In this document: piece after piece, positions 1,626-63,600 of the stretch | Layout: every line of letters starts with the position of its first letter | Numbering within the stretch: position 1 is the first letter of the stretch | Assembly: GCA_016235805.1 (NCBI GenBank) | Contig: JACRIY010000083.1 | Coordinates: 1 to 64,000, forward strand | Origin: Rhodocyclales bacterium | GTDB taxonomy: Bacteria > Pseudomonadota > Gammaproteobacteria > Burkholderiales > Rhodocyclaceae | Direction: 5' to 3' | Length of the DNA stretch: 64,000 bases | The notes under the pieces: model-generated | What the model saw: only the letters and a program-made list of their open reading frames with translations | Database searches by the model: none | What the model was told of the DNA's origin: nothing | Made by a program: the position numbers and the translations under genes

Positions 1626-2539
1626 CAGATTTGCTCCGGCCAGTAAAGGCGCATGGGGTTGTCCACCAGCAGTTTGCGTTTAAGCTCGGGCGTGGTCGCG
1701 ATATGCGGGATGAAATCGACCAGCAGGCCGTCGTCGGGCATGTGGTCCTTGAGGTTCGGGTGCGGCCAGTCGGTACCCCACAGCACGCGGTCGGGAAAGG
1801 TTTCGACGATGCGGCGGGCGAATGGCACCACGTCGCGGTAGGCCGCCCGTTCCCCATTCAAGGCCTTCGGCCCGGCAAGCGACAACCGCTCGGGGCAGCT
1901 CACCTTGCTCCAGACGTTCGGATAGTCGCGCATGAACTTGACGAAGAGTTCGAACTCGGGGCCGTCGACCGGCTTCGAGACATCCGGACGGCCCATGTGG
2001 TCGACCACGATGGTGGTCGGCAGTGCGGTGAAGAAGTCCCACAGCTCGGGCAGGTCCACCGCCTCGAAGTAGATCACCACGTGCCAGCCCAGCGGGGCGA
2101 TGCGCGCGGCGATTTCCATCAGTTCGTCGCGGGGCGTGAAGTCGACCAGGCGCTTGACGAAGTTGAAGCGCACGCCGCGCACGCCGGCCGCGTGCATGGT
2201 TTTCAGTTCCTCGTCGGTCACCGTGCGCCTGACCGTGGCGACGCCGCGTGCCTTGCCATTCGAGTGGAGCAGGGCATCGACCATGGCGCGATTGTCGGCG
2301 CCGTGGCAGGTGGCCTGCACCACGACATTGCGGGCGAAGCCGAGCCGGTCGCGCAGGGCATAGAGCTGAGTCTTCGAGGCGTCGCAGGGCGTGTACTTGC
2401 GTTCCGGCGCGTAGGGAAATTCGGCGCCGGGACCGAAGACATGGCAATGCGCGTCGACGCTGCCTGCCGGCACGCGAAAAGTCGGCGCCGACGGTACGGC
2501 GTACCAGTCGAGCCAGCCTGGGGTTTTCTGGAATTCCAT
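1625..2539 (-). CDS. ligI: 2-pyrone-4,6-dicarboxylate hydrolase
   Basis: Amidohydrolase-superfamily lactonase that hydrolyses 2-pyrone-4,6-dicarboxylate to oxalomesaconate. It is 304 aa. The DAHCHVFGPG segment holds the two metal-site histidines of the superfamily, and WGTDWPHPN near the C terminus holds the conserved Asp. The start MEFQKTPGWLDWY was chosen because it is the family start; an upstream in-frame ATG lies inside the preceding gene. A copy of the dispersed 25-bp element (2477-2501) lies within codons 13-22, coding PSAPTF. The gene ends by overlapping the ligA start. Confidence 0.95.
   Translation of the reverse strand: MEFQKTPGWLDWYAVPSAPTFRVPAGSVDAHCHVFGPGAEFPYAPERKYTPCDASKTQLYALRDRLGFARNVVVQATCHGADNRAMVDALLHSNGKARGVATVRRTVTDEELKTMHAAGVRGVRFNFVKRLVDFTPRDELMEIAARIAPLGWHVVIYFEAVDLPELWDFFTALPTTIVVDHMGRPDVSKPVDGPEFELFVKFMRDYPNVWSKVSCPERLSLAGPKALNGERAAYRDVVPFARRIVETFPDRVLWGTDWPHPNLKDHMPDDGLLVDFIPHIATTPELKRKLLVDNPMRLYWPEQI
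2477..2501 (+). repeat. dispersed 25-bp element, copy 1 (inside ligI)
   Basis: Reads AAAAGTCGGCGCCG then ACGGTACGGCG on the plus strand. The consensus of the family is AARAGTCGGCGCTGG, CG, two free bases, ACGGCG. This copy is inside ligI and is read on the opposite strand as SAPTF. Confidence 0.7.
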
Positions 2540-2540
2540 C

Positions 2541-3467
2541 TCAGTCCTTTGCTTTCGCGGCCGCGAGGATGCGGTCCGCCTCGATGCGCCAGTCGGCGCT
2601 GCGGGCGAATTGGCTGCTGCCACGCATGCCGAACACACCGGCGTCAGCCAGGTCGGCGACCCAGGCCTGGCGCTCGGCCGTGCCCTGCGCCGACCACGGC
2701 GTAAGTCCGATTTCGCGCACGGTTTGCGCCACTTCGCGCACTTCCTCGCTGCGGCGGCGGCCGTGCTCGATCACGCGCTGGAAGAAGTACGTCGCCTGCT
2801 TCTCCCAATCGATGCCGGGGAAGGTTTCGTAGAGCGAGGCGACCACGGCATCCTCGACGCCATAGGCGCGCGCGGCGGTGAAGCTCTCGATGACCATGGC
2901 TTCGAGCCCCTTGATCATCACGCTGCGGCACATTTTGGTCGCCGAGGCGACGCCGAGTTTGTCGCTGGCGACCTTGGCGGCGAAGCCGAGGTCGTTCAGC
3001 AGCGGTGCCAGCTCGGCGGCGGCCGGCCCACCCAGCAGCAGCGGCACGCGGATGCGATGGGGCGGCACCGAGGTCATTACCGCGCCCTCGACATAGCGCC
3101 CGCCGGCGGCATCGATCAGCCCGGCGGCTTCGATCTTGGCGTTGGGGGAGGCCGAGTTGAAATCGAGGAACCAGGCGCCCGGCCTGAAAGTCGGCGCTGA
3201 CGCCACGGCGACCGCGACGGTCTGGTCGGCCGTGACCGCGGAAATCACCAGGTCGGCGGCCTTCGCCAGGAAGGCGTGGCTGGTCATCGGCCGCACGCCG
3301 TGCTGCGCGGCATGCGCCAGCAGCGGCGCGTCGTCGGCCGTGCCGAACTTGATGTCGTAGGCCAGCACCTTCTCCACGCCGCGCGCACGCAGGTCCTCGG
3401 CGAGGATGCGCCCGACCTCGCCGTAGCCGACGAGGCCGATGGACCATTGCAGGGGATTGGCGTTCAT
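2541..3467 (-). CDS. NAD-binding 6-phosphogluconate-dehydrogenase-like oxidoreductase with DUF1932 domain
   Basis: The protein has 308 aa. An N-terminal Rossmann fold is marked by IGLVGYGEVGRILAEDL, followed by the all-alpha DUF1932 C-terminal domain with KMCRSVMIKGLEAMVIESF. It resembles beta-hydroxyacid dehydrogenases. It lies between ligK and ligI in a run of overlapping or abutting genes, so a role in the same pathway is likely, but the substrate is unknown. It could act on a keto- or hydroxy-acid intermediate such as oxalomesaconate or its hydrate; that is inference. A copy of the 25-bp element lies in its Rossmann half, coding VASAPTF. Confidence 0.85.
   Translation of the reverse strand: MNANPLQWSIGLVGYGEVGRILAEDLRARGVEKVLAYDIKFGTADDAPLLAHAAQHGVRPMTSHAFLAKAADLVISAVTADQTVAVAVASAPTFRPGAWFLDFNSASPNAKIEAAGLIDAAGGRYVEGAVMTSVPPHRIRVPLLLGGPAAAELAPLLNDLGFAAKVASDKLGVASATKMCRSVMIKGLEAMVIESFTAARAYGVEDAVVASLYETFPGIDWEKQATYFFQRVIEHGRRRSEEVREVAQTVREIGLTPWSAQGTAERQAWVADLADAGVFGMRGSSQFARSADWRIEADRILAAAKAKD
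3186..3210 (+). repeat. dispersed 25-bp element, copy 2 (inside the DUF1932 gene)
   Basis: Reads GAAAGTCGGCGCTGA then CGCCACGGCG on the plus strand, 22 or more matches to the 25-base consensus. It is read as ASAPTF on the coding (minus) strand, the same frame as copy 1. Confidence 0.7.
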
Positions 3468-3482
3468 TGCTTTAAACGCTCA

Positions 3483-4166
3483 TCAGTCGATGTACTTCAA
3501 TCCGGCCTTTTCCAGCGGGCCGCGCATGTCGTACATGTCGAGGCCGAGGATGCCGGAGGCGAGTTTGGCGCGCTTGGCGCCTTCGTTGGCTTCGCGCTTG
3601 ACGGCGGCGTCCAGCGTCTGCGCGGCGATCGCGCGCGGCACGCAGACCACGCCGTCGTCGTCGGCGACGATCACGTCGCCCGGCGTCACCATCATGCCGG
3701 CGCAGACCACGGGGATGTTCACCGAGCCCAGCGTGGCCTTGATGGTGCCCTTGCTGCTGATGCACTTGCTCCACACCGGGAACTTCATTTCGCCCAGGGT
3801 CTTGACGTCGCGCACGCCGGCGTCGATCACCAGCGCGCGGGCGCCCCGCGCCTGGAAGCTGGTCGCCAGCAGGTCGCCGAAATAGCCGTCGCTGCACTCC
3901 GCGCTGAGCGCGGCGACGACGATGTCGCCGGGCCGGATCTGCTCGGCGACGACATGCATCATCCAGTTGTCGCCCGGATGCAGCATCACGGTGACCGCGG
4001 TGCCCGACACCTGCGCGCCGGCGTAGATCGGCCGCATATAGGGCTTCAGCAGGCCGACGCGACCCATGGCCTCGTGCACCGTGGCCGAGCCATAGGCGGC
4101 CAGCGCGTCGGCCGTGGCAGGCTCGGTGCGGGTGATGTTGCGATAGACGACGCCGAGTTCGTACAT
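3483..4166 (-). CDS. ligK: 4-carboxy-4-hydroxy-2-oxoadipate aldolase
   Basis: RraA-fold class II aldolase that cleaves 4-carboxy-4-hydroxy-2-oxoadipate to pyruvate and oxaloacetate, the last step of the pathway. It is 227 aa. It has the family start region [11 protein letters not shown], the [23 protein letters not shown] block and the [12 protein letters not shown] segment, where the Asp and Arg of the divalent-metal and substrate site lie. It abuts ligJ with a 1-base gap. The same enzyme class also handles the gallate pathway product. Confidence 0.93.
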
Positions 4167-62807: not shown

Positions 62808-62898
62808 GGTTCTTTTTTCGTGCGTCGTCGAAGTGGGATGGATGGAGCCACGGAGACCCCGCGGCGAGTCTATCCCAGTTCAACGCGGCGGAATTTCG

Positions 62899-63552
62899 CT
62901 ACTCCTTCGGCCCCGCCTCGATCAGATCGGCCGGCGGCGGGCGCATCAACCCGGCAGCGTCGTCGGTCGAGCCCCGCAGCCAGGCATCGACCTCGCCGAA
63001 CTCGATCGCCACCACGCTGCGCTTGTCCTGCCGGTCCGGCGCCAGCTTGGGGTCGGGGCGGTGCATGCGCGACATCAGCGGATGGCTGTCGGCATTGATG
63101 GTCAGCATCGTGTAGCTCTGCAGCACCTCGCCGGTTTCCGGGTCGGTCCAGGCATTCCACAGGCCGGCCAGACCCCACGGCGCTCCATCCGCGCGGCGGA
63201 AGTTCCACCACACGTTGCGCCCCGTCTCCCAGCACGGCTCGTCGAAGGACCAGGCCGGGATGATGCAGCGCCTGCCCTGCAGCCACGACTGCTTGTAGGA
63301 CGCCTTGCCGGCGATTTCCTCGAAGCGGGCATTGTTCGTCGAATACGTCAGCTTCGCCGTCTTGGCGAACCAGGGAATCAGGCCCCACTGCCCGACCACC
63401 AGTTCAAGCTGCGGCGCAGTCGCGCCGGGACGCAGGAAGGGGCCTTGCGCGCGCGGAAAAACCTGTTCGGCCCAGCGCGGCTGGTTGTCACGGCCGACAT
63501 GCCAGAAGCGTTCGATGGCCGCTTGATCGGGAGGGACGTAGCGAGTGCACAT
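62899..63552 (-). CDS. SRAP-domain (HMCES/YedK) abasic-site-protecting protein
   Basis: The protein has 217 aa. The catalytic Cys2 is at the start (MCTRYVPP). STNNARFEEIAGKASYKQSW, RRCIIPAWSFDEP and SHPLMSRMHRPDPKL hold the Asn, Glu and His of the active site. These proteins form a thiazolidine link with abasic sites in single-stranded DNA. The conserved Cys2 fixes the start. Confidence 0.93.
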   Translation of the reverse strand: MCTRYVPPDQAAIERFWHVGRDNQPRWAEQVFPRAQGPFLRPGATAPQLELVVGQWGLIPWFAKTAKLTYSTNNARFEEIAGKASYKQSWLQGRRCIIPAWSFDEPCWETGRNVWWNFRRADGAPWGLAGLWNAWTDPETGEVLQSYTMLTINADSHPLMSRMHRPDPKLAPDRQDKRSVVAIEFGEVDAWLRGSTDDAAGLMRPPPADLIEAGPKE

Positions 63553-63574
63553 GGCGGAAGTTTAGTGCCCGAAC

Positions 63575-63600
63575 CGCCGTCCCGCCAGCGACCGACTCTT
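63575..63600 (-). repeat. dispersed 25-bp element, copy 11 (one extra base)
   Basis: On the minus strand AAGAGTCGGTCGCTGG then CGGGACGGCG; a single T is inserted within the GGCG step, otherwise exact. It is 22 bases upstream of the SRAP gene start. Confidence 0.75.

Follow-up and report, generated by a model that had tools for sequence, protein, structure and literature searches.

A genus-wide 25–27-bp repeated motif of Rhodocyclaceae as a candidate DNA-uptake-sequence-like label of self-DNA

Genomes of one genus of Rhodocyclaceae carry a long, dispersed DNA motif, called M here, which may be a genus-specific self-DNA label resembling the DNA uptake sequences (DUS) of Neisseriaceae; on the sequence comparisons below, we give this interpretation an even chance of being right. 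M came to light in 64,000 nucleotides of a Rhodocyclales bacterium (GenBank assembly GCA_016235805.1, contig JACRIY010000083.1, positions 1 to 64,000), the whole of which is referred to as the window. How common is it? Scanned at up to 3 mismatches, the assembly to which the window belongs (80% complete, 3.83 Mb) yields 588 sites, of which 300 are on the plus and 288 on the minus strand, and the reversed pattern yields 3; this is one site per 6.5 kb or about 154 per Mb. A preliminary description of the window had suggested such a genome-wide count, and its result speaks against both outcomes that would have undone the proposal: copies confined to the window and a count no higher than background. 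In a 464-kb sample of the same genome, sites with 0, 1, 2, 3 and 4 mismatches number 15, 28, 34, 11 and 6 (94 in total) and the reversed control gives 0; the control begins to match at exactly 5 mismatches, with 3 cases in the 464 kb. The consensus, RARAGTCGGCGCTGGCGRBACGGCGAY (258 sites, many chosen as exact), is non-palindromic, with sharp edges and flat flanks, and carries about 34 bits over 25 positions (94 own-genome sites, a figure raised by the cut at 4 mismatches). The unit, first proposed as 25 bp, is nearer 27 bp, its final two positions being weakly conserved. The position weight matrix has no palindrome, which bears out the remark that M is not an inverted repeat and is unlike the hairpins of repetitive extragenic palindromic (REP) elements, and M folds no better than shuffled sequences (z −1.3 to −1.7). 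An RNA element was considered and rejected: there is no Rfam match in the window, genic orientation is 34/30 and the folds are unremarkable. Density is much higher than average at one locus, L143 (G000 C34:60001-80000), where 20 kb contain 10 copies, 8 between genes.

In the window itself, a scan of both strands with AARAGTCGGCGCTGGCGNNACGGCG at up to 3 mismatches returns 9 sites, where 100 dinucleotide shuffles give a mean of 0.01. Eleven full copies had been listed, most of them said to match at 22 or more of 25 positions. Nine lie within 3 mismatches, against the 0.01 expected, and the repeated element is therefore real. The copy at 63575-63600 also stands, with one extra base; that at 52722-52746 has 5 mismatches, short of the match claimed, and is doubtful because chance matches start at this level. 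The shorter core noticed at 31004-31017 on the minus strand is genuine too, and turns out to be the left part of an M interrupted by a 24-bp insert (30969-31017). The copies are as follows.

2477-2501, plus: 2 mismatches; antisense in an amidohydrolase-family gene (1625-2539, minus), residues ~13-21, ahead of the domain
3186-3210, plus: 2 mismatches; antisense in a DUF1932/NAD-binding dehydrogenase-like gene (2541-3467, minus)
15036-15060, plus: exact, intergenic
19111-19135, plus: 1 mismatch, intergenic
30969-31017, minus: M split by a 24-bp E2 insert (see below) after AAAAGTCGGCG
35865-35889, minus: 2 mismatches, intergenic
36605-36629, minus: 3 mismatches, intergenic
43596-43620, plus: 2 mismatches; at the end of an ADP-ribosylglycohydrolase-family gene (43613-44530, minus)
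48103-48127, minus: 1 mismatch; sense in a NifB-like gene (47709-49244, minus), residues ~372-380, between the radical-SAM and Nitro_FeMo-Co domains
52722-52746, plus: doubtful, 5 mismatches, chance level
59034-59058, minus: exact; sense in a hybrid histidine kinase gene (58620-61403, minus), residues ~782-790, between the receiver and Hpt domains
63575-63600, minus: one extra base, the rest matching; adjoins an SRAP-family gene (62899-63552, minus)

How far does M reach beyond this genome? A survey of 61 genomes took in 31 of the genus, 6 of sister genera and 24 of other families of the order. M is present in 31 of 31 genus genomes at 45-708 sites each (fewer than 300 only in G016, G021 and G025) and is near-absent from the 30 genomes of other genera, with 0-3 sites in the sister genera and 0-4 in the other families, so that the check on related genomes proposed at the outset yields genus-wide conservation. 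An exact scan finds M in at least 119 stretches of named genomes. Among the 80 matches listed, most are titled Rhodocyclales, Rhodocyclaceae, Sulfuritalea, Sulfurisoma or Rugosibacter and some uncultured beta proteobacterium, Burkholderiaceae, Gammaproteobacteria, Thiobacillus or Propionivibrio, all being metagenome assemblies except Sulfurisoma sediminicola BSN1; NCBI taxonomy places Sulfuritalea in the Sterolibacteriaceae, Betaproteobacteria. Might the poor genomes hold M in another dialect? In 74.6 kb of G016 (L365-L369), a member of the genus that is 99% complete and has just 45 sites, matches with 4-6 mismatches are not in excess, which speaks against a decayed dialect there; its MutL copy (L194) is retained with 3 mismatches. 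Likewise, 100 kb each of the sister-genus genomes G032, G034 and G036 contain neither M nor a comparable motif, except for the REP-like CCTGTGGGAGCGGCGGCC of G034, a dispersed word with 7-8 copies per 100 kb (L350-L354). Among open-licence papers, none was found with the motif core, nor any linking 'DNA uptake sequence' with Rhodocyclales or 'uptake sequence' with Rhodocyclaceae.

Where does M sit, and is it kept there? With genes called by a home-made gene finder in the 464-kb sample (89.8% coding), 64 of the 94 copies are genic, 34 sense and 30 antisense, in all phases; their commonest reading frame (23 of 64) encodes K-V-G-A-G-x-T-A. The other 30 are intergenic, 32% of the copies in 10% of the sequence, and for 16 of these a stop codon is no more than 10 bp away. 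Among the 94 copies a single pair of neighbours stands in inverted orientation, between convergent genes. The first five M-bearing proteins tested (MutL, IleRS, AlaRS, GcvP and a sensor kinase) are encoded by core genes. Conservation was examined by comparing four regions of the own genome (4.8, 3.7, 20 and 20 kb) with relatives, and, because circularity had to be avoided, pairs were picked on one half of M and wobble identity was measured in the other. Identity in the unselected half is 0.887 and 0.894 against 0.662 and 0.681 in the flanks (115 and 123 pairs; 14 and 13 sites), a comparison that is no formal test, as the pairs share ancestry and are not phylogenetically independent. Shared non-coding copies are 0.84-0.87 identical and their flanks 0.60-0.63 (17 and 14 pairs, partly the same pairs taken from both sides). 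Judged by these alignments, M is more conserved than its surroundings.

How is a copy gained? Where a coding M is present on both sides, 121 of 134 pairs are equal in length. Where the orthologue has no coding copy (61 pairs, 13 sites), 15 pairs show no length change, 32 orthologues are longer and 14 shorter by 2-15, and none is shorter by 25-27 bp, although alignments are uncertain there. In MutL, where M runs antisense over KRRLASADF, two other genera are ungapped and have different residues, which points to an origin by substitution. Taken together, the alignments suggest that M arises by substitution or recombination and not by insertion. It is here that an ordinary insertion repeat, such as a REP element, a miniature inverted-repeat transposable element or the relic of a small insertion sequence, has to be weighed. 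M is dispersed, genus-specific and enriched between genes, as such a repeat would be, and 3 of 29 non-coding cases show gaps of at least 15 bp that resemble gain or loss; the 61 copy-less coding orthologues, none of them shorter by the length of the motif, argue the other way. REP elements of the REP-associated tyrosine transposases (RAYT) are a close comparison, since they too form hundreds of dispersed short copies, and small inverted repeats are present in some forms of M. M is moreover enriched near RAYT-like genes: 30 PF01797 loci hold 35 copies in 90 kb, often at a similar place, a density of 389 per Mb where the 464-kb sample has 203. Unlike REP elements, however, M forms no hairpin, and its coding copies are without signs of insertion. 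The dominant repeat of the RAYT-like loci (L453-L477) is AAAGGGGYCAG, not M, and G001, G007, G012 and G018 have 450-640 M sites (516 in G018) yet no PF01797 match; G016 is also without one. Because RAYT loci have their own repeat and M abounds in genomes lacking PF01797, a REP/RAYT origin is disfavoured, though M is about twice as dense in those loci, and an insertion repeat of any of these kinds seems very unlikely.

The interpretation that we favour is that of M as an uptake label. Abundance, restriction to a genus, tolerant sites in core genes, conservation above the flanks and gain without insertion all match what is reported of uptake sequences (PMC2397512, PMC3630211). Competence machinery is present as well, with ComEC (PF03772) in 30 of 31 genus genomes. 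Passages of PMC2397512 describe DUS as more conserved than their surroundings, situated in permissive parts of core genes and forming inverted-repeat terminators; to judge from these and from PMC3630211, DUS and M are alike in being non-palindromic, taxon-specific, spread genome-wide on both strands in genic and intergenic places, and conserved above their flanks. They differ in length (10-12 bp for DUS, 25-27 bp for M), in number (thousands per genome against about 154 sites per Mb) and in that M has insert forms, is carried by phages and has only a postulated receptor. The uptake signal sequences (USS) of Pasteurellaceae show the same general behaviour and, like M, are asymmetric with an A-rich end, and are unrelated in sequence (AAGTGCGGT or ACAAGCGGT, as given in passages of PMC3630211) and in length. 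How could M accumulate? A surface DNA receptor of a type IV pilus or competence apparatus would prefer M-bearing DNA; incoming homologous fragments with M would replace alleles without it; and recombination biased in this way, together with selection, would let M build up in core genes wherever it is tolerated, as in linkers and gene ends and on either strand, and M would then be maintained against mutation. The likeness to uptake sequences drawn in the preliminary description is thus supported in part, by distribution, constraint and apparent mode of origin, and the uptake function is a proposed one.

Could M instead bind a nucleoid or chromosome-organising protein, as had also been proposed, or one that acts in segregation? 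Its genome-wide spread on both strands would fit. M, however, is not palindromic, is mostly genic and is phage-borne, and its information is well above what is needed to address ~600 sites. Nor is there replication polarity by genome half among the 77 exact sites of the complete genome G002, with 23 plus and 20 minus in the first half and 15 plus and 19 minus in the second, base 1 being assumed to lie near the origin. The proposal thus finds no support, and we consider it highly improbable. Spacing is slightly more even than random, with a coefficient of variation of 0.82 against 0.97 in simulations, and is within chance because it falls inside the simulated 95% range (0.81-1.19).

A second feature of M is that precise inserts interrupt a few percent of its sites. 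Their length is almost always divisible by three, in intergenic sites too; the 464-kb sample has 6 interrupted sites (2 E1, 4 E2) besides the 94 plain ones. The E1 form, AAAGT-TATGCGNAGCGGTATCCC..GGGA-CGGCG, is found in 30 of 31 genus genomes, with 0-20 occurrences in each genome, and in 0 of 30 others. All 87 E1 matches (up to 2 mismatches) in the loci examined follow the left part of M. Its insert measures 24 or 27 bp in 74 of 76 distinct sequences, including 14 of 14 called non-coding, and reaches 39 bp in a variant at L207; GCGNAGC is kept in 70 of the 76. Rarer inserts (E2, E3 and others at the NN position) amount to 21-36 bp net. Examples are:

L056:3130, L207 near 2155, L128:9145, L140:3149 and 15467, L147:1867 and L134:14653: M copies broken by precise inserts (E1, E2 and a long-stem E1 variant among them)

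Plain and interrupted M alternate at orthologous places. In MutL, E1 amounts to 8-9 extra residues in five genomes (G001, G005, G022, G025, G028), and a MutL tree, several forks of which are weak, places these five in three clusters. Do the inserts fold? Mini-hairpins of d(GCGNAGC) are unusually stable, and compensatory-looking changes occur in a few inserts (L056, L207, L297, L327); folding energies of the insert forms, however, do not exceed those of shuffled sequences, so no structure is claimed and real hairpins were set aside. Rickettsia palindromic elements likewise insert into genes with the frame preserved, but the E inserts are far shorter and are seen only inside M.

M also occurs in phages. 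The viral contigs were selected for M, so its density in them is not comparable with that of the host; they contain 83 exact copies in 78 stretches with GC 0.49-0.66, and an exact scan found no E1 among them. Of 19 distinct proteins examined from seven of these contigs, several had no match; the others include a CI-like repressor, a phage lysozyme and replication proteins, besides recombination proteins of RecT-like, RecE-like and YqaJ-like kinds. Such phage-type proteins indicate that at least some of these contigs are real phages, and those with a CI-like repressor are, by that mark, of temperate type. The largest cluster among 99 distinct M-bearing open reading frames (up to 2 mismatches) consists of 10 DNA methyltransferases with M near the 3' end; 5 of the 10 were tested and 5 of 5 match PF01555. 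M stands at the 3' end in 23 of 80 viral relatives of the methyltransferase, the others ending in different tails. A 31-bp tail (GTGCAGGGCGACATGCTTTTGCCTGCYAACG) often follows M in phages, with M in front of 22 of 23 distinct tails; methyltransferase genes ending in M plus this conserved tail are found at L439:480-1187 and in L402, L412, L423, L424, L434, L440 and L445. The hairpin region often present behind the methyltransferase tail may be similar to the attC site of an integron. Uptake sites are also known from phage HP1.

Phage carriage bears on two further explanations. In the first, M would be a Chi-like intracellular signal of self, sparing or directing the processing of M-bearing DNA by a recombination helicase-nuclease or a defence nuclease; host and phage would then both keep M at one copy per several kb. 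The observed spacing of several kb and the exact phage copies agree with this, and Chi can occur in phages. But E. coli Chi is polar and M is not, and 34 bits, several times the information of the Chi octamer, is far above it; this explanation strikes us as improbable. In the second, M would be a mini-element that copies and overwrites: a short single strand bearing M would pair with sequence that partly resembles it, which recombination would then overwrite, and versions with an insert would anneal by both halves to an existing M, leaving the insert behind. Such an element could spread in host and phage alike, no benefit being needed. The length-neutral gain of M fits, as do inserts confined to M (with E1 always behind its left part), the alternation of plain and interrupted forms at orthologous sites, the combination of M and 31-bp tail behind differing upstream sequences in phages, and the RecT-like annealing proteins encoded by two examined phage contigs. 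On the other hand, neither a template source nor an enzyme was found, the synonymous constraint across the genus suggests upkeep over mere spread, and the insert forms fold no better than shuffles. We regard copying and overwriting as possible, though unlikely. A broader version, which we think doubtful, makes M the fixed scaffold of a host-and-phage-wide templated overwriting of short DNA, possibly doubling as a label for uptake in transformation. If so, plain M would replace partly similar sequence with its length unchanged, frame-neutral inserts (E1 with GCGNAGC, and others) or the 31-bp phage tail would be precisely written into or onto it, and core proteins such as MutL would gain 8-9 residues.

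What, then, weighs against M as a DNA-uptake label? At 25-27 bp it exceeds the known uptake sequences (9-12 bp), its spacing is barely more even than random, and it is denser in the RAYT-like loci. Precise inserts are not predicted for a plain duplex-binding site. No receptor is singled out: ComEC is also in 25 of the 30 genomes of other genera and so is not specific, and ComP_DUS-like pilins (PF16732) match inside and outside the genus, M-less genera included. G016 has both ComEC and a ComP-like pilin, yet only its 45 sites. Finally, the viral contigs, selected for M, carry exact copies, whereas a passage of PMC2397512 reports DUS as rare in recently acquired genes. Our confidence goes no higher than the even chance given above because length, inserts and phage copies are unexplained by uptake alone. 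If M is an uptake label, it would be an independent, genus-restricted and much longer one than those described (a passage of PMC3630211 calls uptake sequences unique to Neisseria species and Pasteurellaceae), and would open the origin and spread of self-DNA recognition to study in a lineage from the environment for which many genomes exist, among them the complete G002 and the nearly motifless G016, which should help to identify the reader of M. If it is not, it still has to be explained why a motif of 34 bits is conserved at synonymous positions in core genes and also occurs in phages.

The window also offers a minor observation on the organism: the NifB-like gene at 47709-49244 on the minus strand, with its radical SAM and Nitro_FeMo-Co domains, suggests nitrogen fixation.

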